Of a stretch of 64,000 nucleotides of DNA, positions 5,969-28,049 are shown one piece after another (position 1 is the first letter of the stretch; every line of letters begins with the position of its first letter). The stretch spans positions 1,364,001 to 1,428,000 of the forward strand of contig NZ_AP021861.1 in assembly GCF_009177095.1 (NCBI RefSeq), in the 5' to 3' direction. The position numbers were made by a program, and so were the translations under genes. The DNA is from Lacipirellula parvula (GTDB taxonomy: Bacteria; Planctomycetota; Planctomycetia; Pirellulales; Lacipirellulaceae). The notes beneath the pieces are model-generated. The model was not told where the DNA came from. It made no database searches and saw only the letters and a list, made by a program, of their open reading frames with translations.

Positions 5969-5975
5969 ACGACAA

Positions 5976-6776: not shown

Positions 6777-6782
6777 AGAAGG

Positions 6783-9307: not shown

Positions 9308-9432
9308 CCGGCGTTGGCAAAACAGAGGCGGGCCGCTTGCCGGCCGCCAGTGAGTAGGGTTGCCATCCGGTAGGTTTTGCGCATTTGTCGCGCGTTTCGC
9401 ATTTCTAGGCGTTTGACGCAAATTCTGGCAGA

Positions 9433-9474
9433 CTCTTAATCAGTAGGTTCATGGTTCGAGTCCATGAGGGAGCA
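9433..9474 (+). other. tRNA-Lys(CTT) 3' fragment, attachment site
   Basis: The bases fold as the 3' half of a tRNA: anticodon loop CTCTTAA (anticodon CTT at 9435-9437), a 5-base variable loop, a perfect T stem (CATGG/CCATG) around TTCGAGT, the acceptor strand AGGGAGC and discriminator A. The 5' half is missing and CCA is not encoded. Such displaced 3' ends mark integration into a tRNA gene, so this is an element boundary (att site). The intact tRNA should lie to the left, outside the window. Confidence 0.85.
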
Positions 9475-10776
9475 CTGATTCTCTGCGAGATCCTCTGAGT
9501 TCTCGCGTTTTCCAGCCTGTGGCTGCACAGAAAACGACTCGCTGCCATCTCTTGCGGCTGAGTACTGCACCGGATTTTGCAGCGCTTTGCCCCCCGTTGG
9601 CTGGGTCGCGGCCCTCGCGAAGTCTTCTTCGGTCGTTCGCCAATAGAACGCTTGCGCGATCTCGATCGTGTGCCCAAGCCATTCGGACGCGACGTGCTGC
9701 GGATACTCCGCGACGATCTCCGTGGCGCGAGTCTGCCGCAAGTTCTGGAACAGCTTTGGCCATGGCGTGAGGCCTGCGCGAGCGATGATCCGCTCCAGCT
9801 GCGTTCGTAGGTTGGCGTTGGCGCCGCGGTAACGAGTGATCACGTAAGCCTTCGCCCGCTCCTTCGGCGGCATGGCATTGACGGTGGCCTCTACGATCGC
9901 CCATGCGTCTTCGAGGAACGGTCGGAGCTCAGGAAAGATCGGCAGCGGTCGAGAGGCGCCGCCGTGATGGTGCTCGGTCTTGGGACTGCGGACCGTGATG
10001 CGATTCGCTTGCCAATCGACGTCGACCCACCGGAGCGCGAGATGCTCTGACGGGCAACGCAGTCCACCGAAGCGACTCAGCGCGAACAGCAACCGCCACT
10101 GAGCATCCGGGCATGCGTCGAGAACCTTCGCAGCCTCCTCACGCGTCACGAAATAATCTCGCTCCCGATTGGATCGCACGGATACCCCCTTCATGCCAGC
10201 GAATGGATTCTCGGTGATGATTCGATCGCGAACGGCGGCGCGGAAGAACTGGCGGGCGAACCCGCACCGGCGCCGAACGGTGTTGTCGCCGAGCTTCTTC
10301 CGTACGACCGTCCCGTTCGCTCGCTTCTCGCCCGCAGCCAACCAACGCCGCCATTTGTCGGCATCTTCCGCAGTGACGTCAGCGAGCAGCTTCTTCGCCC
10401 CGAAGTACTCCAGCAAGCCTCGCTCCGTCGCGCGGTAGTTGATCGCGGTCGATTCCTTCACGTCGGAGCGGCCTTCGATGTAGGCCGCCAAGAACTCACC
10501 GAGAGTCGACGCACTCTTCGCGGACCTCGGCGGGAGCAGCCCCACCTTCGCCAGCTTGTCGTGGAGCGTCGGCGTCAGGTTGCGGACCCATTCCGACGTT
10601 TTGGCACTCCAGCTCGTCTGCGAGATCAGCGCTGCGATTAGCGCCTCCACATGGCCCTTGATGTTCTCGGCCTCCTTCTGCGGCATCTTGCCCAGGCGAA
10701 TCGATCGCCGTTTCTTCTCGCCCGCACTGAACTGGATCGTGCGATTGCCCTGTTTGTCCTTGCTCAGTGATGCCAT
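9436..10776 (-). CDS. int: Tyrosine recombinase / integrase
   Basis: At 446 residues it catalyses site-specific integration and excision. It has an N-terminal arm-binding part, a SAM-like core-binding domain (~90-195) and a catalytic domain (~205-395): Arg240 in FGGLRCPSE, Lys266, Arg347 in QNLRQTR, His369 in WLGHT and nucleophile Tyr378 in AFYWRT. The His of the usual HxxR box is Gln344. The last dozen codons (CSLMDSNHEPTD) are the antisense of the tRNA fragment, and the TAA lies within the anticodon loop, so the attachment site is inside the gene's 3' end. The FGGLRCPSE box is common in planctomycete integrases. Confidence 0.92.
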   Translation of the reverse strand: MASLSKDKQGNRTIQFSAGEKKRRSIRLGKMPQKEAENIKGHVEALIAALISQTSWSAKTSEWVRNLTPTLHDKLAKVGLLPPRSAKSASTLGEFLAAYIEGRSDVKESTAINYRATERGLLEYFGAKKLLADVTAEDADKWRRWLAAGEKRANGTVVRKKLGDNTVRRRCGFARQFFRAAVRDRIITENPFAGMKGVSVRSNRERDYFVTREEAAKVLDACPDAQWRLLFALSRFGGLRCPSEHLALRWVDVDWQANRITVRSPKTEHHHGGASRPLPIFPELRPFLEDAWAIVEATVNAMPPKERAKAYVITRYRGANANLRTQLERIIARAGLTPWPKLFQNLRQTRATEIVAEYPQHVASEWLGHTIEIAQAFYWRTTEEDFARAATQPTGGKALQNPVQYSAARDGSESFSVQPQAGKRENSEDLAENQCSLMDSNHEPTD

Positions 10777-15462: not shown

Positions 15463-16227
15463 TTAGTATTTGATCGGATCACCGGTCGCAGTTTCGGCGA
15501 CGCCAGTTGGCTGTTGGCCCTGCGCGGGTCTAACCCCTGGGGCTGTTGGGGCGGCCGTTTGAGGCGATTGCTGAGTCTGTACCCGGTCCATTAGCGGCGT
15601 TTGGTAAAAGCGCCATTCACTGGCTTGCTGGTTCATCGCCTGAGCAACTGGCCTCGCAGCGTTGCTTGGAGTCGCCACCTGGTCCGCTCCTGGAACCGCG
15701 GCCCCAGTGTACCCCTGCACGTTCGTAGCATTGGCGGTGTCGTTGGAAGGTGAGCCACCGGCAGAGCTGGCTGCTCCCTCTCGCTGGGCCCCCGCAGCGG
15801 CCGGTTCAACGTCCATCCACCCGTAGTCACCGTCGAAGTCTTGTTGGCCAGTTAGCTGCCCTTGCTGCGCATTCGGATTCGCCGGATTGAAGTCGTTAGC
15901 CCCAATGCCATTAACGCTTCGCTGTTGCTGCGGAAGCATGGGGCCTCGGCCGCGTTGGTAGGGTTGAGCGCTGGACGTTCCTGCGCCTAGATAACCATTG
16001 CCTGCCCATGCCGCGTAGTTGCCCATAAAGCTCACCGCTCCGCCTGTCGGTTGTGGGCGCGTCCTTGGGCTCATCTGCCCAGCAGCGGCACCGCCAGGAC
16101 TGCTGAAGGGAAGGCGCGAGCGGAGGTTGCCTCGAGGGCCAACCGCGCTAGTGCTCTGCGCGTTGGCGCAGTTGTGGGCGAGTAGGGTTGCAAGTACGGC
16201 GAACGTGATTGTTGCTAGAGATTTCAT
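15463..16227 (-). CDS. Secreted low-complexity (Gln/Ala/Gly-rich) protein
   Basis: At 254 residues it has a signal peptide (FAVLATLLAHNCANA) followed by a mature region rich in Gln, Gly, Ala and Pro with little predicted structure. Short repeats such as QQG, QPTGG and GQQ are frequent. There is no membrane anchor. It may be a cell-surface or matrix filler. A strong sigma-54-type promoter lies upstream at 16271-16286, so expression may be activator-dependent. Confidence 0.7.
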   Translation of the reverse strand: MKSLATITFAVLATLLAHNCANAQSTSAVGPRGNLRSRLPFSSPGGAAAGQMSPRTRPQPTGGAVSFMGNYAAWAGNGYLGAGTSSAQPYQRGRGPMLPQQQRSVNGIGANDFNPANPNAQQGQLTGQQDFDGDYGWMDVEPAAAGAQREGAASSAGGSPSNDTANATNVQGYTGAAVPGADQVATPSNAARPVAQAMNQQASEWRFYQTPLMDRVQTQQSPQTAAPTAPGVRPAQGQQPTGVAETATGDPIKY

Positions 16228-16270: not shown

Positions 16271-16286
16271 CGCAATGGGCGCGCCA
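16271..16286 (-). promoter_or_regulatory. Sigma-54-type -24/-12 promoter for the secreted protein
   Basis: On the minus strand the bases read TGGCGCGCCCATTGCG: GG and GC are 12 apart as sigma-54 requires, with 10 of 12 consensus positions matched (TGGCACG-N4-TTGCA). It lies 44 bases upstream of the 16227 start. Confidence 0.65.
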
Positions 16287-16742
16287 CTCCGAGCGTTCCA
16301 TGAGCCTGAGCACTTTATTGACGGCGAAAGTGTACGGCCCCTGTCAGCGGTGCGAGTATCTAGGCCTTCTGTAAGTTCGCTCTGCCGTCGTCAATAGACG
16401 GGCCGTAAATCGTCAAGCGGTAACAAATTGTCGCATGGCGGAACGCGGCACACCTTTCGCATGGAGGGTGGTGCTGCGCACATCAGGGGCGCCGCGAGCT
16501 TCCTCATTCACATACCCCTGGTACGGCGGTTCCTGCGACAGTTCTTAGCCTTACGGCCGCAGCGAACCCCGCGCCAGCTTTCCAATTGTTTCCAATTGCT
16601 ACGACTATGGTGGTCCGGATTAGGACCGCGCCGGTTGCAACCAATCCAATGCAATACGTCCTGCACATTGAAATCGGCGACGAAACTTTCGAGCCGCTGG
16701 AATACGTCGAGTGCCCTCCCATTGGTGCCTCTCGGGCGACTG
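16287..16742. other. Intergenic stretch, no supported gene
   Basis: Several overlapping open frames exist on both strands but none has a ribosome site and recognisable composition. A weaker sigma-54-like match (CGGCACACCTTTCGCA, 16446-16461, + strand, 9 of 12) is present. Confidence 0.3.
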
Positions 16743-16803
16743 ATGGTCGGTCCAGTTCAGGAAGCTCCGAGCGGGGGCTACTGGCTAGGCCGACTGTCGA
16801 TTC
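16743..16803. repeat. Dispersed 60-bp repeat, copy 1
   Basis: It starts ATGGTCGGTCCAGTTCAGGA, identical for 20 bases to the copy at 24401. It then diverges slightly and shares GGCCGACTGTC-ATT at its end. Arms related to GTCGGTCCAGT and its reverse complement are recognisable, less perfect than in copy 2. No coding or transposon link is seen. Confidence 0.55.
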
Positions 16804-16856
16804 TTCAATCACACACTCCACCGCCAGCCTCGAGCTCACAATACGAAAGCTAATCA

Positions 16857-17120
16857 ATGAGGATTACGACCACCTGCGGCTACGCCATCGCTGCGATGGC
16901 GCACATAGCCGCTCAGCCCTCCAGTTCCGCCGTTTCGAATGCGCGTATCTGCGAGGCGGCCATGCTCAATTGGCTACGCGAGTTCAACAGCTTCGCGACC
17001 GTTGAAGATGAAGCGGTCCGCAGCCTTCTAGCGAAATCGCTGCTGGTTCTCGAAAACTCAGCGGCGGTCGTTTCGCAGGCTGGCATTGAGTTGCTGGATA
17101 GCCACCCGTTCTTTTGGTAG
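16857..17120 (+). CDS. Rrf2-like N-terminal segment without winged helix
   Basis: The first ~35 residues (MRITTTCGYAIAAMAHIAAQ … ICEAA) align with the start of the full Rrf2 gene at 17287 (MKLSNSVAHALAAVVQVAAN … ICKIA). The DNA-recognition helix, wing and sensor Cys region are absent. Instead, ~50 different residues follow (LLAKSLLVLENSAAVVSQAG). It may be a truncated or hybrid regulator that only dimerises, or a decayed paralogue. It is co-directional with the full gene 166 bases downstream, with an inverted repeat between them. Confidence 0.5.
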   Translation: MRITTTCGYAIAAMAHIAAQPSSSAVSNARICEAAMLNWLREFNSFATVEDEAVRSLLAKSLLVLENSAAVVSQAGIELLDSHPFFW

Positions 17121-17125
17121 CCGTG

Positions 17126-17148
17126 AATTGCCATCGATCTTGGCAATT
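17126..17148. promoter_or_regulatory. 8-bp inverted repeat between the two Rrf2-type genes
   Basis: AATTGCCA and TGGCAATT are exact reverse complements with a 7-base spacer, just past the first gene's stop. It could be an operator of the Rrf2 protein or a weak terminator. Confidence 0.45.
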
Positions 17149-17286
17149 GTCTTACTTATACTCTCCCCGCAGTTGCCGCGTTTCTGTCGCTTGGCGGAGG
17201 GCGAATCGCCGGCTTATGCGCTCGTGCCGAACTGAGAGTCGCGAGCGAACATTCAAACGCCAAGCCAACGCCAGAATTTCAGAGCA

Positions 17287-17688
17287 ATGAAGTTAAGTAA
17301 TTCGGTCGCCCACGCCCTAGCAGCCGTTGTGCAGGTTGCCGCCAATAAGTCCTCGAAGCCTCTTGCGAATCCCGCGATTTGCAAAATCGCAAAGCTGCCA
17401 GAGAGGTATATTCTGCAACTCATGCGTCGCCTAGTGAAAGGCGGCGTACTGGAAAGCGTTCGCGGCGTCGCGGGCGGTTATAGACTTGCCCGCGCGGCGG
17501 ACCAGCTTACGCTCGCCGACATCATCGCGGCGCTGGACCCGATCGAAACCGAAGTTGGCTTGCTGTGCGAGTCGCTAGAGCCAGCTTCGCAACAAGTTGT
17601 GCGCCAAGCCTTCGAGGGATTGGAGGGCGACGCGAAACGGCGATTGGCTCAAATCCGCATCTCTGATTTAAGACCGGCGGGGGTGTAG
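17287..17688 (+). CDS. Rrf2-family transcriptional regulator
   Basis: This 133-residue protein has the Rrf2 winged-helix layout: N-terminal helix (SNSVAHALAAVVQVAA), recognition region (ICKIAKLPERYILQLMRRLV), wing (GGVLESVRGVAGGYRLARA) and dimer helix (LTLADIIAALDPIE). Rrf2 proteins respond to iron-sulfur, nitric oxide or redox signals, usually through a three-Cys cluster; here only one Cys (GLLCESL) remains after the wing, so a full Fe-S ligand set is not evident. Likely targets are nearby genes, including itself, through the upstream inverted repeat. Confidence 0.82.
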   Translation: MKLSNSVAHALAAVVQVAANKSSKPLANPAICKIAKLPERYILQLMRRLVKGGVLESVRGVAGGYRLARAADQLTLADIIAALDPIETEVGLLCESLEPASQQVVRQAFEGLEGDAKRRLAQIRISDLRPAGV

Positions 17689-17747
17689 GGTCTCACAACG
17701 CCACCACCATTCCGAGCAACGCCGCAACGACGCTCATTTTCGTTTCT

Positions 17748-17957
17748 TCATCGGCGGTCATGAATGCCCCCGATCAATCCCGTGCTGCTCGGAACCGTCG
17801 TCCCATGACATTTCTGACATTGCCCGTTGGCGTAGCACGCTTTACAGGCGCGACGGTTCGCGGGTTGCTGAGGGGCTTCAGGAGGAAAGGAACCGATCCC
17901 GGCACAGCGGGAACAGCGGCCGGTGCCATCGCACCAGTCGCAAGGCGTCGAAGCCAT
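17748..17957 (-). CDS. Four-CxxC zinc-ribbon miniprotein, copy C
   Basis: This 69-residue protein has Cys pairs CDWC, CSRC, CKAC and CQKC around the shared CAGIGSFPPE and RRACKACYANGQC blocks. It is the most diverged of the three copies, carries a longer Ser/Thr/Gly-rich tail and has no CPxC/HH companion. It keeps all eight Cys, so zinc binding is likely. It lies convergent with the Rrf2 gene. Confidence 0.6.
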   Translation of the reverse strand: MASTPCDWCDGTGRCSRCAGIGSFPPEAPQQPANRRACKACYANGQCQKCHGTTVPSSTGLIGGIHDRR

Positions 17958-18511
17958 TTGAAAGTGCCTACAGTGAAGGCGTGTGCTGAGCTTGACAGGC
18001 GATGAAAGGTCAAATCGGCCGGTGCGGTAAGAATCGGCTTAGGGAGCCAAGCGATTTCAGCGAGGACGGTCTCTAACATACGCCAACTTGCTTGAACTAC
18101 TACCCCACTAAACAACGATTTGGATGATTACGGCCTTATTTCGCATGCACTGTTCCGAATTTCGCAGAACATAGTGTCAGACTTGCAACTTTGTCGCTAG
18201 CGGCTTCAGACAACACGCCATACGGTGTAGGTATCGCGGTGAGAACTGCCGAGCCTAAGTCGACAGGTTGCGGCTGCTGCGAAGACAAATAGCGGCGTCG
18301 CGAGATCGGCCGAGCTTGCGACGCTTCTTATCTAATCTAAGTGCGTCGCTGCGCTAGTGGACGGCCTGCACGGCCTGCACGGTATGACTCGCCAGCGAGT
18401 CATTCATCTCACAAACAGACCGCTATTCTCGTAACTTACCGGTCCGCCACGCCAACCCGCCGCAGTGGTGTCAATCTTAAATGGGTTGGCGTGGTTTTCC
18501 GGCGTTGCCGG
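17958..18511. other. Intergenic stretch with a 12-bp inverted repeat at its end
   Basis: No convincing gene. A 12-bp perfect inverted repeat at 18447-18494 is described separately. The other frames are short or low-complexity. Confidence 0.4.
18447..18498 (+). terminator. 12-bp stem hairpin followed by TTTT
   Basis: CCACGCCAACCC (18447-18458) and GGGTTGGCGTGG (18483-18494) are perfectly complementary, with a 24-base loop and a TTTT run. This resembles a plus-strand terminator, although the loop is long and no gene precedes it. Confidence 0.4.
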
Positions 18512-18832
18512 TCAGTCGCTCATACTAGGCGACAGGAACTCTGAGAAGTGATGCAGGACGCCGCTGAGCAAGTCTTCTGGGCAGTCGTAATTGCTCACCG
18601 TGAATTCAATGATCGCGCCACGATCGTGCATGCCAAATTCAAAACCGCGATAGTCGAATACAATCCACGTGTCTCGATCTTCACCGGTGAATCTTACGAT
18701 TCGGCAGCCGTCTAACTGCTCAAGCTGGCTGAACATATCTTGCCAAGTTCGCGAGAACGGCAGTTCCGCGAACTTACGACGAGAGATGTGCGAATAGGGA
18801 GATTCCAGCAAGCCTTGGTAGTGCATTCTCAT
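18512..18832 (-). CDS. Small conserved hypothetical protein, paralogue of 19139 gene
   Basis: This 106-residue alpha/beta protein has a C-terminal half DTWIVFDYRGFEFGMH … VSNYDCPEDLLSGVLHHFSEF. It aligns with the gene at 19139 (VLVFDYEHYEF … VNDAECPDTVVDKVLRHFSTL). The conserved VFDY, CP and HF positions mark a shared fold. The two genes face each other from opposite strands, suggesting an inverted duplication. Function unknown; immunity-like or small enzyme-inhibitor roles are possible but unproven. Confidence 0.6.
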   Translation of the reverse strand: MRMHYQGLLESPYSHISRRKFAELPFSRTWQDMFSQLEQLDGCRIVRFTGEDRDTWIVFDYRGFEFGMHDRGAIIEFTVSNYDCPEDLLSGVLHHFSEFLSPSMSD

Positions 18833-19068
18833 CCTTGGTAAAAGCGAATTGCTTTAAACTCAATTCTTGGGTGAGAACTCGCCCAAAGACAGACAAAACT
18901 GCTAATTAAATCACTAATAAATATAGCGTGTACCCCGAAAGGGTCATTGCAATCTAAGAACAACTCAGGAGTGGAGCGGAAATACAGCGCGACGCTCGAG
19001 TAATGCGTCAGACTTGCGATTGGCGTGTTTGGTAGCAATTGACTCAATCTGAACGGAATTAGACACAT
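18829..19068 (-). CDS. Doubtful hypothetical protein
   Basis: This 79-residue frame ends in a 4-base overlap with the start of the 18512 gene and contains hydrophobic stretches (VHAIFISDLISSFVCLWASS). It has no ribosome site or known family, and its composition is not clearly coding. The overlap with a real start is the only support. Confidence 0.25.
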   Translation of the reverse strand: MCLIPFRLSQLLPNTPIASLTHYSSVALYFRSTPELFLDCNDPFGVHAIFISDLISSFVCLWASSHPRIEFKAIRFYQG

Positions 19069-19138
19069 CTGCGACGAGAGATGCCTAAGAATGGGAGTGC
19101 TACGCTGCCGCGATCATCTGGAATGGGAGAATTGTGTT

Positions 19139-19462
19139 ATGGACTTACTCCAATCCCGACTGCCTCCGTTATGGAAACGCCAGATTGGTCAATTAGGTTA
19201 CGCGCATTCCTTTCGAGCGATTCTGCCCCACACCGAGCTACTTCCTGGGGCGAATATTACCTTGTTCATGTCAGATGTATCCGAAACCGTTCTAGTTTTT
19301 GACTACGAGCATTACGAGTTCTGCATCGTTGGCGACGGGGCGGGTCTGAACTTAACTGTCAATGACGCCGAGTGTCCAGACACTGTGGTGGATAAGGTCT
19401 TACGCCACTTCTCAACCTTAAGCTCGTTAGAAAGTACTGAAGCAGGCGGAACGAGCGCCTGA
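19139..19462 (+). CDS. Small conserved hypothetical protein, paralogue of 18512 gene
   Basis: I choose ATG 19139 (107 residues), since GGGAG lies 9 bases upstream; 19091 has no such site. The C-terminal half aligns with the 18512 gene (see there), while the N-terminal halves differ more. Hydrophobic strand TVLVFDYEHYEF and terminal helix DKVLRHFSTL are the conserved parts. The inverted-pair arrangement is the main context clue. Unknown role. Confidence 0.55.
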   Translation: MDLLQSRLPPLWKRQIGQLGYAHSFRAILPHTELLPGANITLFMSDVSETVLVFDYEHYEFCIVGDGAGLNLTVNDAECPDTVVDKVLRHFSTLSSLESTEAGGTSA

Positions 19463-19766
19463 GCATAACTGTTGGACGGCGCACGTTCAGTTTGCGTCGA
19501 TCGGCACCACATTCTGTCGGACGCAATAACAAGACTAGGCGGTTGTTTTTCCTGGATGCGAGTTTCTCTACTCACGAGCCAGTCAACTAATAGCGGCATA
19601 AGCCTTGCACGCCTACGATCGTCCTGCCATTAGATCGATGCACGCAGCTATCGCCGACTTCTTCCAAAGACTTACAAGTCAGCGGCTGCGATTCAAGAAA
19701 GGTCTTTCTGCACACTTAATTGCGGGCATAGGCGCAAACCCTTCTGTTTCATAGAAAGAGTGTGAG

Positions 19767-20435
19767 ATGAGACTTAATTCGTTAATAGTAGTAGCTTTTT
19801 CATGTGCTTACGCCATCGCGTTCGCGCCCGTTTCCATCGCCGCAGAGGCGAAAGCTGGGAGCGGCGAAACAAACCTCGACCAACAAATCGCGACGTGCAT
19901 GCTTTTGGGAAACCGTGAAGAGATCGCACTCGCACAGTTCGCAGAGGAGCACGCTGAGCATCCTCAAGTAAAAGAATTCGCCAAAACGCTGGTTGCAGCT
20001 CACACCAAGGCGGTGGCAATGATCGAGAAGGCGGCACCTGAAGTCGCCAACTTGCAACTGTCGAGTGACAATCCAGCAAATGGCGGTGCAGACCGTTCGC
20101 AACCCATCGGACACTCTAAGAGTGCCACCGCACTCATGCAGGCAGTGAAGAGTGAGTGTTTGTCGCTAACTGAAAAGGAACTTGGTCAGTACAAGGGCGC
20201 GGAGTTCGACCAAGCCTTCATTGGGCAGCAGCTTGGAGCGCATGTGGGAATGTTGGCGCACCTTCGCGGCAGCAATTCGTTTGCTTCACCTGAGCTTCAG
20301 AAACTCATCGCTGAAGGCGAGAAGATGACAACTATGCACATGTCGGAAGCGAAGAAGATCATGGAGCAACTAAACGCCGCTCCGAAGACTGCAAGCACAA
20401 CGCAGCCTGCGACTTCACCGCAGTCTCGTAAGTAG
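19767..20435 (+). CDS. Exported DUF4142 protein
   Basis: This 222-residue protein has a signal peptide (cleavage near AIAFAPVSIAAEA) and a helical four-helix-bundle-like DUF4142 domain at about residues 35-200 (EIALAQFAEEHAEHPQVKEF, HTKAVAMIEKA, then MLAHLRGSNSFASPELQKLI and HMSEAKKIMEQL). DUF4142 proteins are periplasmic, His-rich helical proteins of unclear role that often appear near stress genes. The tail is Thr/Ser/Pro-rich. A strong terminator follows. Confidence 0.85.
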   Translation: MRLNSLIVVAFSCAYAIAFAPVSIAAEAKAGSGETNLDQQIATCMLLGNREEIALAQFAEEHAEHPQVKEFAKTLVAAHTKAVAMIEKAAPEVANLQLSSDNPANGGADRSQPIGHSKSATALMQAVKSECLSLTEKELGQYKGAEFDQAFIGQQLGAHVGMLAHLRGSNSFASPELQKLIAEGEKMTTMHMSEAKKIMEQLNAAPKTASTTQPATSPQSRK

Positions 20436-20443
20436 GGCTAGCG

Positions 20444-20482
20444 AGCCCGGTGCGGCAAATCGCTGCACCGGGCTTTCGCTTT
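20444..20482 (+). terminator. Intrinsic terminator of the DUF4142 gene
   Basis: AGCCCGGTGC and GCACCGGGCT form a 10-bp stem with an 11-base loop, followed by TTCGCTTTT. Confidence 0.85.
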
Positions 20483-20582
20483 TGGCTGAAAGCTTTGGAC
20501 CTGCGGTTAACCTCACACGGCACCAACCAATCGCGGTCGCCCAAAGTATGGCTTCAACGCGATTGCTGATGAAATCGTGAAG

Positions 20583-20996
20583 CTACAACGTAGCCACCAT
20601 CCCCAGCAGCACAGCGACGACGCTCATTCCCACCAACGCCGACCGCAGCGTGAACTGGCGACCGATGCGAATCGCCGCGACGGCGGCAACGGCGAAGACG
20701 AGCGCGGCGTACCAGAGGGGAAAATGAATCCCCCGATTTCTGTAGCCGACTCGACCGCTTGAGTTTGCTAACAAGTATCTCAGCACGGCTTGTCGGTAAA
20801 CTGGCACCGCTGTCTGTCTCACGCTGAGCATTGAAATCATCCCTTTGCCTCGCCACGCCTCCAAGCGTACTTCATGGGTCGCCGATGAGATCGCCAGGGT
20901 GCGAGGCTTTACGCCGTCGAACTGCCACAACGCCAAGCAGCCCACGCTCGCCGCAAGGAAAATCGCCGCCAAGGCGTAGCGGATAGCTTTCAGCAT
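20583..20996 (-). CDS. Membrane protein with planctomycete F-T-L-R-x-x-L motif
   Basis: At 137 residues it has an N-terminal helix (RYALAAIFLAASVGCLALWQ), a hydrophilic mid-section, a second span (WYAALVFAVAAVAAIRIG) and the terminal motif RQFTLRSALVGMSVVAVLLG. The latter is a C-terminal membrane motif shared by many planctomycete orphan proteins. It is a topological family, not a functional assignment. It probably shares transcription with the gene at 21010, which is 13 bases upstream. Confidence 0.65.
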   Translation of the reverse strand: MLKAIRYALAAIFLAASVGCLALWQFDGVKPRTLAISSATHEVRLEAWRGKGMISMLSVRQTAVPVYRQAVLRYLLANSSGRVGYRNRGIHFPLWYAALVFAVAAVAAIRIGRQFTLRSALVGMSVVAVLLGMVATL

Positions 20997-21009
20997 CTAG
21001 GAGCCGGTG

Positions 21010-21513
21010 TTAGTTGGTGATCTCTTCCAGTACTACTTCACCGTCCGGCTTGATCTCTTTAACGGTCATTTTTGGGAATTCGCTCGAATCCCAAAGTTGC
21101 GGTCGGTGCTGGAAACCCGGATTCTCTATTTTCTTGGAAATGATCGAAGCCAGTTCCGCTTGAAGCTTCGCGGCTGTCGCAAGGTCCATCTGCGCGGTCA
21201 GGGCCGTGAAGTTATGGGCTGGATCGTATAGCCGAAGCATCACTCGCGTATCCGGCAGATCATTGCCGTGAACGTCGACTCCCCGCCAGCTTGCTTCCAC
21301 GCTCCATTGATAACTGGATGGCACTTCAACCACGCCGGCTTTGTCTGCGTGAAGTTCACTGGTGTAGAGATAAAATGAGTTGCCCAGTGTCGACGCGATA
21401 TCAGCTGTAGGGGCAGTCGAGTCCTGGGCCGCCACCGCTTCGCGGCTCCAATCGACGTCCGAGGCGGCCCAACCAACAGCGACGCCAATGGCTAGCAGGT
21501 AGAGAGGTTTCAT
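21010..21513 (-). CDS. Exported hypothetical protein
   Basis: I start at 21513 because GGAG lies 9 bases before this ATG; the longer frame to 21651 lacks one. The 167 residues begin with a signal-like segment (MKPLYLLAIGVAVGWAASDV) followed by a beta-rich domain (YQWSVEASWRGVDVHG, VMLRLYDPAHNF). No family is recognised. It lies just upstream of the membrane gene at 20583 in the same direction. Confidence 0.6.
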   Translation of the reverse strand: MKPLYLLAIGVAVGWAASDVDWSREAVAAQDSTAPTADIASTLGNSFYLYTSELHADKAGVVEVPSSYQWSVEASWRGVDVHGNDLPDTRVMLRLYDPAHNFTALTAQMDLATAAKLQAELASIISKKIENPGFQHRPQLWDSSEFPKMTVKEIKPDGEVVLEEITN

Positions 21514-21753
21514 CGAGAAGCTCCGGGGGAAGAGAAGGTTTGGCTGGGATTGTAGCGGATCGGGTTGTTGGATTCGATGCAGGCGGGATTGAGAGATGAG
21601 GTAGGAAAATGCCCTTGCGAGCTGCCTCCTGCCGAAGTCTCTGCCCTGCAAAATTGCAGCGCCACGCAGCAGTCATCCCCTGAGCATAACCGCGGGAGTG
21701 CAAGCAGCCGTCAAGTAGAGATTTGCCTTTCGGCCCTATATCGCAGGGCGTCA

Positions 21754-22098
21754 ATGAGGTTAACGCTCATGACAAAAGGGCAAATTCGAACCCGGTTGCG
21801 AATTCAAGTCGACCCCGCCAAGATTGTGCGATTGCCCCAAGATCGCACCCCTGGAATAGCCGCTTTGTACGACAACTTCCCACCGCGCCAGATCTTCCTC
21901 GCTGGCCGCAACATCGTCTGCGCTTCGGCGGAGGACCTGAAGCTCTTGAAGGAAGCGCAGGCCCTCGAGATCGATCCGGCGACCGTGCTGCAGCATTCCA
22001 TCGGCCGACTGCATCTAATCAAAGAAGCCTGCCAGCGCTACTCGCTAGGGAAGTACCAGCGGCTCGCAAGCCAGGCGATCGACCGTGCCAGCGTCTGA
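21754..22098 (+). CDS. Small island protein, paralogue family member 1
   Basis: This gene of 114 residues (or 109 from ATG 21769, which has GAGG 10 bases upstream) has an N-terminal basic part and a conserved module IVCASAEDLKLLKEAQALEI … HLIKEACQRYSLGKYQRLAS. The module is repeated in the gene at 24111 and in the pseudogene at 11290. It looks like two short beta strands followed by helices. The name and function are unknown, but three copies in 13 kb show it is typical of this island. Confidence 0.6.
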   Translation: MRLTLMTKGQIRTRLRIQVDPAKIVRLPQDRTPGIAALYDNFPPRQIFLAGRNIVCASAEDLKLLKEAQALEIDPATVLQHSIGRLHLIKEACQRYSLGKYQRLASQAIDRASV

Positions 22099-22321
22099 GT
22101 GCGGCTGATGCTTGAGTGAAGTGCTCATAAGCCTACAATTGATTTCGCCAGACTGACTGGGCGGGTCTAGCGACGCAGAGAGGCGGAGGTCCACTCGCGA
22201 GAGGCTTCGTGCTTCTCAATTCCAGCTGGGGCAAGGACGGGGCGTCGATGTTCGTGGAGAGGAGCGACGCTCCGCTTTTTCAGCCGTTCTGCTCGGCTGA
22301 TCGCTCTCTCATCCTTCCGCG

Positions 22322-22337
22322 TGGCACGAGCATTGCA
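22322..22337 (+). promoter_or_regulatory. Perfect-consensus sigma-54 promoter before the J-like gene
   Basis: TGGCACGAGCATTGCA matches TGGCACG-N4-TTGCA at all 12 fixed positions, with GG and GC 12 bases apart. It lies 33 bases upstream of ATG 22371 and its GGAGG ribosome site, the right distance for a sigma-54 start at about 22348. Confidence 0.85.
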
Positions 22338-22370
22338 TCGGTCGCTAGTTACCCGCTCCTGGAGGATGTG

Positions 22371-22727
22371 ATGCTCAGATTGGACCTACCCCAGCTGACG
22401 ATCGTGGCAGCGATCGCCTTCGCATCGTTGGTGCTATTCAATGACATCCTACGGCGCTACCGGACAAGAATGCCGCCGGAGGTGATCAATCCAGCCGTAG
22501 AGCCAGTTATGAAAACAGGATCGCCAGGCCATTACGTGCCGAGCAGTTTCGAGGCCCTGGGACTTCACGCTGATGCCACTCCCGACGATGTGCTCGCCGC
22601 TTACCGATCGCTTGCAATGGAGGCCCACCCGAACCATGGCGGCGACCTGGAAGCGTTCACGCTGCTGCAGCAAAATTTCGAGCAGGCGATGACACACCCA
22701 GAGGGGCGAATCGCCCAAGCTTCTTAG
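22371..22727 (+). CDS. Membrane-anchored J-domain-like protein with HPN motif
   Basis: This 118-residue protein starts at ATG 22371 (GGAGG 6 bases before). One N-terminal membrane helix (LPQLTIVAAIAFASLVLFND) is followed by a linker and a J-domain-like C-terminus (FEALGLHADATPDDVLAAYR then AHPNHGGDLEAFTLLQQNF). The usual HPD tripeptide that activates DnaK is HPN here, so activity may be altered or lost. A perfect sigma-54 promoter lies upstream, so it may be induced under specific conditions. Confidence 0.65.
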   Translation: MLRLDLPQLTIVAAIAFASLVLFNDILRRYRTRMPPEVINPAVEPVMKTGSPGHYVPSSFEALGLHADATPDDVLAAYRSLAMEAHPNHGGDLEAFTLLQQNFEQAMTHPEGRIAQAS

Positions 22728-22829
22728 TGTCCACCTCCGGGCTCCTCGCGGCCTCCGAATCTATGGGCACGCCAATCGCTCGCAACGCAGTGAGCTCAGT
22801 CCAGTGCGATTGATTTTCGAGAAGAGCCC

Positions 22830-23036
22830 TCAGTCGTCGGTTTGATGATTCGGCAGCCGTTTCGTCGCTCGCTGGATCACGCGTTCGAGGTCATCACGGC
22901 TCATTGACCGCTGCTCGGCGAACTCGCGCCGCGTGATCCCTTCAGCTTTAGCTTCGCGCCAAGATCGGAGAATAGCGGCATCTTCGGCGTGAGTGTCTAG
23001 ATGAGGGCGGCCTGGCGTTCGACGCGGCATGTCCAT
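22830..23036 (-). CDS. Small putative DNA-binding protein
   Basis: This 68-residue basic protein has a helix-turn-helix-like stretch (WREAKAEGITRREFAEQRSM then SRDDLERVIQRATKRL). Similar short RxEFAxxxxxS proteins occur in planctomycetes and may be gene-associated regulators. It is preceded, on its own strand, by a strong sigma-54-type promoter at 23072-23087. Confidence 0.55.
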   Translation of the reverse strand: MDMPRRTPGRPHLDTHAEDAAILRSWREAKAEGITRREFAEQRSMSRDDLERVIQRATKRLPNHQTDD

Positions 23037-23071
23037 GACGATCCCTTCCGGAGTGTGGAGAATCGCGTAAT

Positions 23072-23087
23072 TGCAAGTACCGTGCCT
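23072..23087 (-). promoter_or_regulatory. Sigma-54-type promoter for the 22830 gene
   Basis: On the minus strand the bases read AGGCACGGTACTTGCA, matching TGGCACG-N4-TTGCA at 11 of 12 positions with correct GG-GC spacing. The start of the 23036 gene lies 36 bases downstream. Confidence 0.75.
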
Positions 23088-23432
23088 TGGTATCCACTGG
23101 CTTCCCTAGCGTCACGCTGGCTAGCCTGCCGTCGCTGACGGTGTAGCTTCGGCACGTCTTTCGCGTTGCGGTGTGACGCTGCATACAGCAGAGTCGCCGT
23201 GAGGTTCAGGTTACTGCCCAATACTGAGCCTTCGGCGGCTGCCTTCGACGCTCCGCGGATCAGAAATGCGGAACCTTTGCAGTCAAAGCGGTCGCGATCC
23301 ACTCAGGAGCCAACAACCCGCCGCGCCAATCGATTCATGGATGGGCAATTCGGAGGGGGATGGGCGCGGCGGCTGATTAACACGTTTTGCGGGCGATTCG
23401 CCCACCTGTTTGTTTCTCTTTTGAAAGGCTGA

Positions 23433-23618
23433 ATGATGAAACGCTATCTCTCGCTGGCTGTGCTGGCCGGCCTCATGTCTGTCGGCGGTTTGACCGGTTG
23501 TTCGGATAAGGCGTCGACGAAGACTGAAACGACCGTCAGTACGCCAGAGGGCGAAACCACCAGAACGACCGAGACGACGGTTGAGGAGTCGGGCGAGAAT
23601 CCCCCGCCGGCTAACTGA
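23433..23618 (+). CDS. Small lipoprotein
   Basis: This 61-residue protein has a signal peptide ending in a lipobox (LMSVGGLTGCS, Cys23), then a Thr/Glu-rich tail (TETTVSTPEGETTRTTETTV). It is a typical short anchored lipoprotein. The second ATG (23436) may be the true start. The weak sigma-54-like match CGGCACGTCTTTCGCG at 23150-23165 lies about 270 bases upstream, so its relevance is unclear. Confidence 0.65.
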   Translation: MMKRYLSLAVLAGLMSVGGLTGCSDKASTKTETTVSTPEGETTRTTETTVEESGENPPPAN

Positions 23619-23646
23619 TCGGCTTCGATTACCGACTGCGGCTCTG

Positions 23647-23685
23647 CCGCGGCGACCCGCTTTCCTGTTTGTCGGGCCGCCGCGG
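23647..23685 (+). terminator. GC-rich hairpin after the lipoprotein gene
   Basis: CCGCGGCGACCCG and CGGGCCGCCGCGG pair with one mismatch around a 13-base loop, but without a T-run. Confidence 0.45.
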
Positions 23686-23801
23686 TATCCGCTTCTCTCC
23701 TTGCGCTGACGAATCAACTGGCACGGCGGCCCCTCCGTTGTTATCAGCCTTTCAACCTGGGGTCGCCGTGTCAGCTTGTTGAGCGACCCAGGAGCATCGG
23801 C

Positions 23802-24074
23802 ATGTCCTTGAGACCCACCACTCGTGAGTATTTCGACGAAGTGCTTTCCCTGCCTCATGATCGCACCGCGCCGGCGGAACCAACGGCGTGGTACGCGACC
23901 GACGACGGGCGCGTCATCGCCGAAGTTGGGTTTGATCCTGTATCTGAGCGTTGGCTCGGCGTTGTCTACGCACAATCGCCTGAGGGCTGGCAGGAAGTCG
24001 ATCGTCACGGTGAGGGCTATTTTGATCTCGACGATGCCGAGCGAGCCATCGTGTCATCAGCAGCCGCTCTTTAG
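23802..24074 (+). CDS. Hypothetical protein
   Basis: This 90-residue acidic protein starts at ATG 23802 with AGGAG 9 bases upstream. It is an alpha/beta mixture (RVIAEVGFDPVSERWLGVVY and a terminal helix). No family is recognised. A TGGCACG box lies about 85 bases upstream but without a -12 partner, so I see no promoter there. It is followed within 40 bases by the next small gene. Confidence 0.55.
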   Translation: MSLRPTTREYFDEVLSLPHDRTAPAEPTAWYATDDGRVIAEVGFDPVSERWLGVVYAQSPEGWQEVDRHGEGYFDLDDAERAIVSSAAAL

Positions 24075-24110
24075 CCTGCAGACCCTTAATCCCGGTGTGG
24101 AGAGGTGACC

Positions 24111-24353
24111 GTGGATACCGAAAAGCTCTTCCCGCTTGAATACCAGGGCAAGATGATCGCCTGCAAATCGGCTGATGATCGGAAGCTACTGCAGTCGGCG
24201 ATTCTTCTCGACGGTCACCGGTCTGATTGCGACCAATACCCCTCCGCGGAGCTTCAGCAAATGAGCAAGGTCTGCGAGCAGTATGAGCTCACCTCGCTCG
24301 CGAAGCTGACCGCCGAACTAGCAAAACGTTGCGATGAGAGTGAACGCCCCTAG
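24111..24353 (+). CDS. Small island protein, paralogue family member 2
   Basis: I choose GTG 24111 since GGAG lies 8 bases upstream; GTG 24105 is an alternative. The 80 residues align with the 21754 protein: LEYQGKMIACKSADDRKLLQ … SKVCEQYELTSLAKLTAELA. The conserved pattern is C-x-S-A-D/E-D-x-K-L-L and a C-x-x-Y helix. Unknown function. Confidence 0.55.
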   Translation: MDTEKLFPLEYQGKMIACKSADDRKLLQSAILLDGHRSDCDQYPSAELQQMSKVCEQYELTSLAKLTAELAKRCDESERP

Positions 24354-24400
24354 CGTCTACCCTTGTTGCCTCGCCCTTGGGAATGGTGGCGGGGCAACCG

Positions 24401-24456
24401 ATGGTCGGTCCAGTTCAGGACGCTCTGGAGGGCTATTGACTGGGCCGACTGTCAAT
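24401..24456. repeat. Dispersed 60-bp repeat, copy 2
   Basis: It shares ATGGTCGGTCCAGTTCAGGA with 16743. It holds an imperfect inverted pair, GTCGGTCCAGT (24404-24414) and ACTGGGCCGAC (24439-24449). It lies 38 bases upstream of a sigma-54-type promoter, so it could be an activator site. Confidence 0.55.
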
Positions 24457-24493
24457 TACGCAGAACTCCGCACATTTTTTCGTTGCCCTTGGG

Positions 24494-24509
24494 CGGCACA
24501 TACCTTGCA
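24494..24509 (+). promoter_or_regulatory. Sigma-54-type promoter before the FAD-Rieske gene
   Basis: CGGCACATACCTTGCA keeps GG and GC 12 apart and matches 10 of 12 consensus positions. The gene's ATG is at 24556. Confidence 0.65.
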
Positions 24510-24555
24510 TGGGACTCGCTAGCTTTTCTCGCCATCTCTGAGCAGGGGTAGGACC

Positions 24556-26088
24556 ATGGAACGCATCTCACCGATCGCCACCGCGGAAAATGAATCGATA
24601 TGGGGAGCGACCGTCGAACTGCCTAGGTCGCGGCGGATCAACTCTGATCTTGACTGCGACGTCTGCGTCGTAGGCGGCGGCATTTCCGGACTAACTTCCG
24701 CATATCTGTTGGCGAAAGAAGGTCAACGAGTCGTCTTACTCGACGATGGGCCACTGGCCAGCGGCATGACGCACGTTACGACTGCGCACCTGTCGAATGT
24801 GATCGACGATCGCTTCGTCAACATGTTGAGTTGGCACGGCGAGTCAAACACGCGTTTGGCGACGGAGAGCCATGCATCGGCGATCGACTTCATTGAGCGA
24901 GTAAGTCGAGAACTGCACGTCGACTGCGACTTCGAACGGCTCGACGCTTACCTGTTTGCAGCGCCCGACCATAACGACGTCGATCTCCACGATGAGTTCG
25001 ATGCTGCCTTGTTAGCTGGCGTCGACGTGGAGTGGGAATCGCGGGCTCCCCTCACACTGCACGACACCGGCCCCTGCTTGCGATTCCCACGACAAGCGAG
25101 ATTCCATCCATTCAAGTATCTCGACGGCATGGTTCGTTCATTCAAGCGAGCCGGCGGCAAGGTTTTTACGAATACCCACGCTGATAAAGTCACGGGAGGA
25201 GAACGGGCCGCTGTCGAGATCGGCGAGCACCGCGTGCAGGCTAATGCGGTGATCGTTGCCACGAATTCGCCGATCAACGACATGTTTGCGCTACACACGA
25301 AGCAGGCGCCCTACATGACGTATGTCGTCGCGCTTCGCATTCCGCGCGGCAGTATTGAGGATGCGCTCTACTGGGACACGCTCGACGCGTACCACTACGT
25401 CCGCCTTCAGCCGCTTGATCACAGTCACGACTTGCTAATCGTCGGCGGCGAGGATCATAAGTCGGGACAAGCGACCGACACGGAAGAACGCCACCAGCGG
25501 CTAATCGACTGGGCTAGTAAGCGGTTTCCGATAGGCGTTGTCGAGTTCACCTGGGGCGGCCAGTGCATGGAGACGATCGATGGGCTAGCGTTCATCGGCC
25601 GTAACCCTCTTGATGCCGACAACGTTTACGTGGCGACGGGAGATTCGGGGATGGGGATCACTCACGGGACGATCGCCGGCATGCTACTGAGCGATCTCAT
25701 TCTCGGCCGCGAGAATCCGTGGGAGACGCTCTATTCACCGTCACGCAAAACGCTGCGTGCGGTGAGCGAGTTCGCCAAGGAGAACCTCAACGTTGCCAAC
25801 CAATACCTCGATTGGATTACGCCGGGCGAAGTAAAATCGACGGACGAGATCGAGCCTGGCGAGGGAGCCATTCTGCGTCGGGGAATGACGAAGGTCGCGG
25901 TTTGCCGCGACGACGACGGGAAACTCACCGAGGTGTCGGCGGTTTGCCCGCACCTGGGCTGCATCGTTCATTGGAACGGAGCGGAACGGAGCTGGGACTG
26001 CCCATGCCACGGGTCGCGGTTCCACGCAGACGGCGAGGTGATTAACGGTCCTGCAAACATCAACCTTGCGCCCTCAAGCAAAGAGTAA
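24556..26088 (+). CDS. FAD-dependent oxidoreductase with C-terminal Rieske [2Fe-2S] domain
   Basis: At 510 residues it begins with a Rossmann FAD site (VCVVGGGISGLTSAYLLAKE, ~36-55), and has a DAO-type (glycine-oxidase-like) substrate and FAD domain to ~400 (GDSGMGITHGTIAGMLLSDL near the end of it). A Rieske domain follows: CPHLGC (Cys464, His466) and CPCHG (Cys482, His485). Such fusions oxidise amines or alcohols and pass electrons to an iron-sulfur cluster; the substrate cannot be read here. It lies 64 bases upstream of the SDR gene, likely co-transcribed under the sigma-54-type promoter. Confidence 0.9.
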   Translation: MERISPIATAENESIWGATVELPRSRRINSDLDCDVCVVGGGISGLTSAYLLAKEGQRVVLLDDGPLASGMTHVTTAHLSNVIDDRFVNMLSWHGESNTRLATESHASAIDFIERVSRELHVDCDFERLDAYLFAAPDHNDVDLHDEFDAALLAGVDVEWESRAPLTLHDTGPCLRFPRQARFHPFKYLDGMVRSFKRAGGKVFTNTHADKVTGGERAAVEIGEHRVQANAVIVATNSPINDMFALHTKQAPYMTYVVALRIPRGSIEDALYWDTLDAYHYVRLQPLDHSHDLLIVGGEDHKSGQATDTEERHQRLIDWASKRFPIGVVEFTWGGQCMETIDGLAFIGRNPLDADNVYVATGDSGMGITHGTIAGMLLSDLILGRENPWETLYSPSRKTLRAVSEFAKENLNVANQYLDWITPGEVKSTDEIEPGEGAILRRGMTKVAVCRDDDGKLTEVSAVCPHLGCIVHWNGAERSWDCPCHGSRFHADGEVINGPANINLAPSSKE

Positions 26089-26151
26089 TGCGTGTCCGCC
26101 CTCCCCGGCTCGCGACGCAAACACCTGCTCAATAATTACTGGTTGTCATCT

Positions 26152-27045
26152 ATGGCGAACAAATCGAAGGTCGGCGGGAAAAGCAATAAACGAAACGTCA
26201 GGCCAGCGAAGACGCAGTCGCGACGGCCTGGGCGGCAGAGCGAGATGACTCCGCAGCCCGTTTCTATTGTCCCCGGCGTTCCCGGTTCCGGGCGCCTCGC
26301 CGGCAAGGTAGCGCTAATCACAGGCGGCGACAGCGGAATTGGTCGAGCTGTCGCGCTTCACTTCGCGCGAGAGGGCGCCAACGTTGCGATCGTATACCTC
26401 AGCGAAATGAAAGATGCGGAAGAAACAAAGCTAGGAGTAGAAGAGCACGGCGCTAAATGCCTGCTCCTCAAGGGCGATGTCGGCAGGGAAGCATTCTGCA
26501 AGCGATCGATCGATCAGTGCGTTTCTAAGCTCGGTCGACTGGATATACTCGTTAATAACGCAGCAGAGCAGCATCCCAAGGAGTCCCTCGACGAGATCGA
26601 TGAGAAGCAGCTGACGTCGACATTCCGAACGAACATCTTCTCAATGTTCTACTTGTCGAAAGCCGCTATCCCTCACCTGAAGAAGTCGCCCGAGACGAGT
26701 ATCATCAACACGACGTCCGTGACCGCTTACAGAGGTCACGAGACCTTGCTCGACTATTCTGCAACGAAGGGTGCGATTGTCAGCTTCACGCGATCGCTTT
26801 CACAAGTCCTCGCAAAGGATGGCATTCGAGTGAATGCCGTCGCGCCAGGGCCCATCTGGACGCCGCTAATTCCCTCTACGTTTCCTGCGGAGAAGGTGGC
26901 ATCGTTCGGAACAGATACCCCACTAGGAAGAGCGGGCCAACCTTGGGAGGCAGCGACCTCCTACGTGTTTCTGGCATCGGCTGAGTCGTCGTATATTACT
27001 GGGCAGGTCATTCACCCGAACGGAGGCGAGATTATCAACGGATAA
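26152..27045 (+). CDS. Short-chain dehydrogenase (general-stress type)
   Basis: At 297 residues it has a basic, disordered N-terminal tail (MANKSKVGGKSNKRNVRPAK), then an SDR domain: NAD(P) motif GGDSGIGRAV, NNAAEQ, active site YSATKGA (Tyr-x3-Lys) and terminal GQVIHPNGGEIING. The long tail and fold match the YghA-like group, which reduces aldehydes or acts on sugars during stress. A GTG start at 26092 is possible. A terminator follows at 27107. Confidence 0.88.
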   Translation: MANKSKVGGKSNKRNVRPAKTQSRRPGRQSEMTPQPVSIVPGVPGSGRLAGKVALITGGDSGIGRAVALHFAREGANVAIVYLSEMKDAEETKLGVEEHGAKCLLLKGDVGREAFCKRSIDQCVSKLGRLDILVNNAAEQHPKESLDEIDEKQLTSTFRTNIFSMFYLSKAAIPHLKKSPETSIINTTSVTAYRGHETLLDYSATKGAIVSFTRSLSQVLAKDGIRVNAVAPGPIWTPLIPSTFPAEKVASFGTDTPLGRAGQPWEAATSYVFLASAESSYITGQVIHPNGGEIING

Positions 27046-27106
27046 CTCGTCGAGCGGCCGCCCCAAACGAAGAGCAGTATCGCTCGCATTACACTGAAAG
27101 TAGAAA

Positions 27107-27132
27107 AGGCCCGGCCAAAGCTGGCCGGGCCT
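27107..27132 (+). terminator. Intrinsic-type hairpin after the SDR gene
   Basis: AGGCCCGGCCA and TGGCCGGGCCT form a perfect 11-bp stem with a 4-base loop. It sits between the convergent SDR gene and the 27172 gene and may serve both. Confidence 0.8.
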
Positions 27133-27171
27133 CACGAGAACCGATCGGGAGGCTAGATCAAACTGATCTAA

Positions 27172-27570
27172 CTACCTGGCGCATGACGCGGCGTCGGCCT
27201 TCCAGTTCTCTTCGGTTTCTTTCGAATTCTTGGTCAAATGGACGTGGCGATCGACGCGGGAAACCCAGCTGATTGGGACGAAGTGGTGCTGCCCGTCTCG
27301 ACTATCATTTTTCGTGAGCTTGATTGCATTGCCCTCGACGTGGTCGACGACGCCGACTTTCTTACCACACGAAGCGATAACTTCCATGTGGTCCTCGATG
27401 GCGGACACTCCACGGTCAGTTCCCCCGTCTGGACCGCTCATCCCGGTCTTCTCTTTCACGAAATCCACGGCATCCTCGGCGCCGGTAGCGATGCGCGATC
27501 CAACGTCCTTCGCCGCATTCGCAACGGCATTACCCGCGTTTGCGACGTTCTTCTTAATGCTGTCTGCCAT
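27172..27570 (-). CDS. DUF2171 protein
   Basis: This 132-residue protein starts at 27570 (AGGGGAA 6-10 bases upstream). Residues 1-55 are a helical, Ala/Asn-rich segment (NAGNAVANAAKDVGSRIATG) like stress-associated LEA/CsbD types. Residues ~65-115 form the DUF2171 beta-barrel-like fold (HMEVIASCGKKVGVVDHVEG). DUF2171 genes often lie in stress or desiccation clusters. A TGGCACG box lies upstream but has no correctly spaced -12 element. Confidence 0.75.
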   Translation of the reverse strand: MADSIKKNVANAGNAVANAAKDVGSRIATGAEDAVDFVKEKTGMSGPDGGTDRGVSAIEDHMEVIASCGKKVGVVDHVEGNAIKLTKNDSRDGQHHFVPISWVSRVDRHVHLTKNSKETEENWKADAASCAR

Positions 27571-27758
27571 GTTAGGTTCCCCTTGAGATTCGGCAGCGAT
27601 TACTGCCGTGCCATGTTGAAAAGTTACTAGAACTGGGCTCTGGCCATCACCTGTAATCACTGGCGGTTGCGCATGAGCACGCCAGCTGACAGGTTTTCAG
27701 ACTGGGGTGAATGCTTCGCGTCCCCCGGTGGCGTTGATGCGCGTACCCGCCCCACGCA

Positions 27759-27986
27759 TTACCGCTTCTTACCGCGTCCTCGTTGTGCCGCAGTGTCGCG
27801 ACCAGGGGTAGTTTCCCCAGTAGCACCGCCACCTGCGCGACCACTCGCCGGGCCAGTGCGAATCGGTACTTCGACTCTTTCGTCTTTGCCGACGCGTACA
27901 GCTTTCGTTGGAACTCCATGCTCAACTGCCGGCACGCCAACCCCAGGTTCGCCCTTGCCAACGAGTGGCTTCTTAGGCTGGGACAT
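27759..27986 (-). CDS. Small basic low-complexity protein
   Basis: The ATG at 27986 is preceded by AAAGGAGGATC, the best ribosome site in the island. The 75-residue product is Gly/Pro/Lys/Arg-rich (EHGVPTKAVRVGKDERVEV and an RGRGKKR end). It may be disordered and bind nucleic acid. A sigma-54-type promoter lies at 28028-28043. Confidence 0.6.
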   Translation of the reverse strand: MSQPKKPLVGKGEPGVGVPAVEHGVPTKAVRVGKDERVEVPIRTGPASGRAGGGATGETTPGRDTAAQRGRGKKR

Positions 27987-28027
27987 GATTGATCCTCCTT
28001 TTGGTGACTGTTGACTGTCTTTCCCAT

Positions 28028-28043
28028 TGCGATTGGCGTGCCG
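28028..28043 (-). promoter_or_regulatory. Sigma-54-type promoter for the 27759 gene
   Basis: On the minus strand the bases read CGGCACGCCAATCGCA (10 of 12). GG and GC are 12 apart and the start of the gene lies 42 bases downstream. Confidence 0.6.
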
Positions 28044-28049
28044 CTTGCA
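28034..28049 (+). promoter_or_regulatory. Overlapping sigma-54-type box on the plus strand
   Basis: TGGCGTGCCGCTTGCA also fits 10 of 12 positions. It overlaps the minus-strand box by 10 bases and points to the 28335 gene. Confidence 0.45.

Follow-up and report, generated by a model that had tools for sequence, protein, structure and literature searches.

Conserved sigma-54-type boxes in an island of Lacipirellula parvula point to a possible general-stress-type regulon of the Pirellulales

Introduction

One stretch of the Lacipirellula parvula chromosome raises the question of whether sigma-54-type boxes that cluster before its genes are promoters and, if they are, whether they belong to one programme. 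The stretch, hereafter the window, comprises 64,000 nucleotides (G000:C1:1364001-1428000) within a genome of 6.92 Mb in a single contig, and an earlier note made from its letters alone had placed five such boxes across an accessory island and read them as an undescribed regulon carried by a mobile region. Here we report that four of these boxes are kept between copies and orthologs whose flanking DNA has diverged, that the same box is in excess before four gene families, and that RpoN (sigma-54) and its activators are encoded in the genome. We consider it likely that the window boxes are RpoN promoters and that the island adds an accessory branch to a sigma-54 general-stress-type regulon of the Pirellulales.

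Conservation and density of the boxes

Boxes were scored over the 12 defined positions of the sigma-54 consensus TGGCACR-N4-TTGCW, and gene starts were taken from our own gene calls. The five boxes at 16271, 22322, 23072, 24494 and 28028 were all recovered at the coordinates and on the strands first reported, with GG and GC 12 bases apart in each and with scores of 10, 12, 11, 11 and 10 of 12, respectively; all are intergenic and lie 33-46 bases ahead of a start codon (Table 1). A further box, at 19594, is absent from the earlier note. Loci and genomes outside the window are given by our L and G handles.

To gauge conservation, we set identity over the 16-base box against identity over 100 upstream alignment columns. 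Across five comparisons involving the window, the upstream columns are 42-52% identical and the boxes agree at 12-15 of 16 positions: 15/16 against 42% for the J-domain-like gene and its copy in L115, 14/16 against 48% for the gene of a 68-residue basic protein and its paralog, 14/16 against 52% for that of a 75-residue basic protein and its paralog in L106, and 12/16 against 44% and 13/16 against 43% for a flavin adenine dinucleotide (FAD)-Rieske oxidoreductase gene compared with genomes G004 and G003, where the differences fall in the free spacer. Two further J gene copies, L026 and L115, give 14/16 and 45%. The J gene pair of the window and L026 was left out because an RNA-like element keeps its whole upstream region conserved; the FAD-Rieske pair G004/G003 (14/16, 82%) is too close to tell, and that of the window and G005 is less clean, the aligner having slipped.

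Conservation is seen for the boxes at 22322, 23072, 24494 and 28028, and in our judgement the reading of these four as genuine sigma-54 promoters is well supported. It is weak for 19594, which is perhaps also a sigma-54 promoter; the DUF4142 paralog in L107 is preceded by an 11/12 box. The box at 16271 is indistinguishable from background, its score being its sole support, and it means little alone because 10/12 boxes are common in the background (0.26 per kb). The sigma-54 regulon first proposed for this locus is supported at four of the five sites, though not at 16271, and reaches other Pirellulales.

Box density, which the earlier note had suggested comparing with the genome background, is higher in the island than in the rest of the chromosome as sampled. 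The window has 5 boxes at ≥11/12, against a mean of 0.68 in 40 dinucleotide shuffles. As background, 37 stretches of 20 kb (740 kb in all) were taken from this chromosome. With Y permitted at the first consensus position in background and cluster counts alike, they contain 24 boxes at ≥11/12; the 16 kb between window positions 15000 and 31000 hold 7, where 0.52 were expected (Poisson P ~1e-6). The richest 12 kb of the window has six boxes and that of any background stretch at most three, and when six boxes in 12 kb were simulated genome-wide, P was ~0.0125. Conservation is the stronger evidence.

Box excess before stress gene families

Counting this one, 24 of 117 genomes have the FAD-Rieske gene (E ≤1e-80), which gives 24 loci besides that of the window; 22 of these could be tested for a box within 200 bases upstream. 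Fourteen of the 22 have a box at ≥10/12 and ten at ≥11/12, whereas random positions in the same loci reach these scores in 5.1% and 1.3% of cases. A second set, of named genomes (80 of at least 582 relatives kept and all 80 scanned, with some planctomycete loci shared with the first set), has a 10/12 box at 4 of 74 loci outside the Planctomycetota (L188, L191, L214 and L224).

For CsbD, which was matched in 63 of 147 genomes, 30 loci were kept and searched over 300 upstream bases; 20 carry a box at ≥10/12 and 12 at ≥11/12, and the reversed motif was found in 0 of 27 upstreams. The 20 CsbD neighbourhoods that we fetched (19 of the 30 loci and G003; 354 kb) contain 49 boxes at ≥11/12, compared to 15 for the reversed motif. 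Ku was picked as a family after one sighting (L098, itself in the test set), and 18 of its 29 testable loci (30 kept) have a box at ≥10/12 and 13 at ≥11/12; Ku is present in 27 of the 117 genomes, and this genome has none. Among 29 testable DUF4142 loci of 30 kept, one of them a copy from this genome, the counts are 12 and 7.

Control genes of at least 300 residues were searched over 250 upstream bases. A 10/12 box precedes 16 of 249 such genes in this genome, and an 11/12 box 1 of 249; in the relatives, whose stretches were selected for their FAD-Rieske and CsbD genes, an 11/12 box precedes 9 of 211. Against both controls together, Fisher P values at 11/12 are 6e-10 for FAD-Rieske, 1e-10 for CsbD, 5e-12 for Ku and 2e-5 for DUF4142; at 10/12 they are 2e-8, 1e-11, 6e-10 and 7e-5. 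The general-stress families FAD-Rieske, CsbD, Ku and DUF4142 are found under one promoter type. Boxes before DUF1328, DUF3309, DUF883-like (below cut-off), catalase, PRC-barrel, topoisomerase IB and DUF1269 genes were few or single sightings; the topoisomerase IB gene of this genome stands behind a 12/12 box (L117:10154, +).

Sigma-54 machinery and a candidate activator

The genome has one rpoN gene and 24 activator-domain matches, 20 of them strong. A 12/12 box (L016:7705, +) lies 88 bases ahead of the rpoN start, which suggests that rpoN is autoregulated, and two genes that read by eye like flagellar basal-body genes have 11/12 boxes upstream. In L113, the locus where this genome has CsbD, a receiver-AAA+-Fis activator (L113:12243-13700) adjoins a multi-PAS hybrid kinase. 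Relatives of this activator (tblastn, E ≤1e-20) occur in 8 of the 20 CsbD neighbourhoods, one of them cut by a contig end, and in G024 another is found close to the FAD-Rieske gene; in two same-genus genomes the protein is 94% identical, and the GITRGxLRxK positions of the Fis domain are invariant in nine aligned copies. Two paralogs in this genome, L232 and L235, are similar enough to the L113 activator that either may be the actual partner. Orthology was considered and rejected, the G024 protein being 53.5% identical to L113 and 52.3% to L232, and because it is nearly as close to the paralog we limit the claim to an activator subfamily.

Another activator gene lies 12 kb left of the window (L011:7614-8660, contig 1351614-1352660). 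It encodes a 348-residue protein without a receiver domain; a 12/12 box lies ~380 bases upstream of the gene and two 11/12 boxes follow, of which the second precedes the gene of a 59-residue basic protein. The GAFTGA loop is present in both the L011 and L113 activators.

When activator sites were sought by dyads and k-mers, TGGTC-N7-GACCA alone stood out: with at most two mismatches, it was found in 21 of 50 cases against 4.9 expected, in its own discovery set, and spacers of 6 and 8 give no clear excess. Joined to the box, it has 7 matches in 396 genomes, one of them before a CsbD gene, and 0 when reversed. We regard it as a candidate activator site and a lead only. At one locus of a Pirellulales genome (L273), a protein that by eye is rhodopsin-like follows the palindrome and a sigma-54 box.

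The proposed regulon and its alternatives

The mode of action of sigma-54 is established, and the transcription, activator, signal and stress role that we infer from sequence would fit it as follows. At the four well-supported boxes of the window, and perhaps at 19594, RNA polymerase would be held closed and silent until, under stress or starvation, a sensor kinase phosphorylates an AAA+ enhancer-binding activator, likely a receiver-AAA+-Fis protein such as that of L113. The activator would then remodel the closed polymerase, and the genes would switch on together. Such a regulon would be spread over this chromosome and the order Pirellulales, with the island as its accessory branch, and its other members may include CsbD, Ku, DUF4142, DUF1328, DUF3309, PRC-barrel, DUF1269 and catalase genes.

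Several observations weigh against this proposal. Eight of the 22 FAD-Rieske loci lack a 10/12 box, one of them from the same genus (L061, with 133 upstream bases available); only two of six named planctomycete FAD-Rieske loci have one (L151 and L204; not L150, L174, L194 or L225); and a 10/12 box precedes 35 of the 211 control genes in the relatives. The DUF4142 boxes of the window and L107, which lie 157-172 bases from the start, agree at 11 of 16 positions with upstream columns 55% identical. A good copy of TGGTC-N7-GACCA is missing before most window boxes, and the 7 found in 20 held-out CsbD upstreams, where 20.6% were expected, make a weak result. Two of the seven best boxes of the cluster (16446 and 30838) have no convincing gene downstream. 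Genome-wide, there are 279 matches to the pattern when one mismatch is allowed and 338 to the reversed pattern, in a listing that missed two exact sites found by another search; since the reversed pattern is no rarer, most one-mismatch matches are chance and score alone is weak proof, and we set such loose counts aside as uninformative. In Rhodopirellula baltica, rpoN is reported to be unaffected by heat and to decrease at high salt (PMC2754498); the same paper refers to a sigma-54 promoter proposed for a stress-induced thioredoxin. A last point, the 12 of 20 CsbD neighbourhoods without an L113-type activator, also bears on the first alternative.

The boxes could be real sigma-54 promoters of genes that fall into several unrelated regulons, with a different activator for each and no common general-stress control. 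These neighbourhoods would fit such an arrangement, as would the ~20 activators of the genome, the absence of an activator-site motif common to the window boxes, and the second activator gene with boxes on both sides to the left of the window. The same families, however, carry the box in many genomes, and one activator subfamily recurs in eight of the 20 CsbD neighbourhoods; we consider separate regulons unlikely. Binding of the boxes by another protein, such as a repressor with a -24/-12-like site, is highly improbable given the exact GG-N10-GC spacing, the distances of 33-46 bases to start codons and the presence of the same box before rpoN and the two flagellar basal-body-like genes. A chance pile-up of motif matches, which the genome-wide one-mismatch count, the genome-corrected clustering P and the two boxes without a convincing gene would favour, is very improbable because the boxes were retained while flanking DNA diverged and the gene-family excess stands above both random positions and ordinary genes.

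Relation to known systems

The proposed sigma-54 regulon shares cargo with the EcfG system, which is of another design. EcfG is an extracytoplasmic function (ECF) sigma factor freed by a partner switch, whereas the promoter type here is -24/-12 and needs an ATP-driven activator. In Borrelia, where an RpoN-RpoS cascade places sigma-54 at the head of an adaptive programme, sigma-54 works by way of rpoS, whereas here the box stands directly before the stress genes. The direct EcfG targets of Sphingopyxis include csbD, catalases, mscS and ku-ligD (PMC7083833), and csbD, catalase and ku cargo is common to the EcfG/PhyR general stress response of Alphaproteobacteria and the genes described here. This match is the reason for our label 'general-stress-type'. 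Among the 80 kept FAD-Rieske loci, and with FAD-Rieske upstreams alone searched, the EcfG-type motif GGAAC-N15-18-CGTT/C precedes the gene in four, three from Bradyrhizobium and one from Nitrobacter (L200, L205, L207 and L208); it was not found in the other alphaproteobacterial loci or in the three Pirellulales loci of that set.

Within the same class, and for the same promoter type, sigma-54 regulons have been predicted in silico in Planctomycetia (PMC12316311, 2025), a paper that cites earlier work on Pirellula strain 1. As its main text already places MscS, UspA, chaperone and ZraR-like genes under predicted sigma-54 control, the novelty of our proposal is lowered. That main text does not contain CsbD, catalase, 'general stress' or 'non-homologous', and the supplementary tables could hold such genes. 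Our literature search, within one library's coverage, found no paper that describes a general stress response of planctomycetes based on sigma-54.

The chances seem to us evenly balanced that the general stress response of Pirellulales depends on sigma-54 together with a receiver-AAA+-Fis activator, putatively in place of RpoS, SigB or EcfG. Jointly with this putative response, and with the same even weight, the usual cargo (CsbD, Ku, catalase, FAD-Rieske, DUF4142 and others) would lie under an all-or-none, ATP-driven switch, and islands would add lineage-specific members. If true, the master regulator would have changed while the cargo was kept, and many small uncharacterised planctomycete genes could be interpreted as having a stress role. 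Genetic tools for the phylum have reportedly been described (PMC11958385), which makes the predictions testable.

Gene content and origin of the island

Table 1. Boxes, genes and other features of the window, numbered from its first base
Feature	Position	Strand	Sequence or match	Remark
Tape-measure-like gene (phage tail)	3380..5968			left of island
Tyrosine integrase	9436..10776			left of island
Weak sigma-54-like box	16271..16286	-	TGGCGCG-CCCA-TTGCG, 10/12	before secreted low-complexity protein (15463-16227)
Sigma-54 box	19594..19609	+	CGGCATA-AGCC-TTGCA, 11/12	157 bases before DUF4142 gene
DUF4142 protein	19767..20435	+	Pfam PF13628, E 2.3e-15	signal-peptide-like start, judged by eye
RNA-like element	22133..22292	+		~160 bases
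Sigma-54 box	22322..22337	+	TGGCACG-AGCA-TTGCA, 12/12	before J-domain-like gene
J-domain-like protein	22371..22727	+	Pfam DnaJ, E 1.4e-5	below gathering score
68-residue basic protein	22830..23036	-		putative DNA binder in the earlier note; paralog 84%
Sigma-54 box	23072..23087	-	AGGCACG-GTAC-TTGCA, 11/12	before 68-residue protein gene
Sigma-54 box	24494..24509	+	CGGCACA-TACC-TTGCA, 12/12 with Y first	kept in other species' FAD-Rieske orthologs
FAD-dependent (DAO) oxidoreductase	24556..26088	+	Pfam DAO, E 3.4e-52; Rieske, E 6e-13	C-terminal Rieske domain
SDR family oxidoreductase	26152..27045	+	NCBIfam PRK06701, E 5.7e-126, above cut-off	start codon chosen by us
DUF2171 protein	27172..27570	-	PF09939, E 5.5e-26	three copies in genome
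75-residue basic protein	27759..27986	-		paralog 84% in L106
Sigma-54 box	28028..28043	-	CGGCACG-CCAA-TCGCA, 11/12 with Y first	before 75-residue protein gene

The FAD-Rieske oxidoreductase has matches to both of its domains, and the J-like protein has a DnaJ match whose score is under the gathering cut-off. The SDR gene is probably cotranscribed with the FAD-Rieske gene, given their common strand and a gap of 63 bases, and the DUF2171 gene is possibly in the operon of the 75-residue protein gene. The genome has three close copies of the J-like gene, all behind a 12/12 box and the third at 1.80 Mb, and the convergent pair that it forms with the 68-residue protein gene is duplicated at 5.31 Mb. 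A profile search of the 68-residue protein gave no family above cut-off, and a Pfam search of the 75-residue protein gave none. As a broad marker the 68-residue protein gene was discarded, because beyond its two copies in this genome a search of 117 genomes gave two weak matches.

The description of the island as a mobile region is borne out in part. An integrase and a phage-like gene lie to its left, its GC content is lower on average than that of the right half of the window, and the chromosome has related gene sets in two other places, 5.30-5.34 Mb and 4.32-4.34 Mb. None of the other tested island genes (26 queries, two of them wrongly framed) was seen in four stretches of 8-20 kb that surround the FAD-Rieske gene in the same genus. 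A search for a tRNA at the island found none, and no island ends or attachment site turned up, no search for ends having been made. The genes at window positions 3380-10776, which encode the tape-measure-like protein, a subtilase and the integrase and adjoin the island, are perhaps a prophage remnant. The related set at 5.31 Mb includes a partial FAD-Rieske relative (L026:8459-9178, -; residues 269-510, 59%), and at L041:8166 (+) an 11/12 box stands ahead of a gene paralogous to those of the small proteins at window positions 18512 and 19091.

The RNA-like element upstream of the J-like gene had no overlapping Rfam match at E up to 1 and no match in five same-genus genomes, most of them incomplete. 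Its fold was beaten or equalled by 22 of 200 shuffles for the window copy and by 1 of 200 for a second copy. Two further copies could be aligned (L052:1545-1716, -, and L053:1498-1670, -), with a mean column identity of 91% across the three. The element has a TACAAT -10-like box and ends in a hairpin followed by TTTTT, and one copy stands without a J gene.

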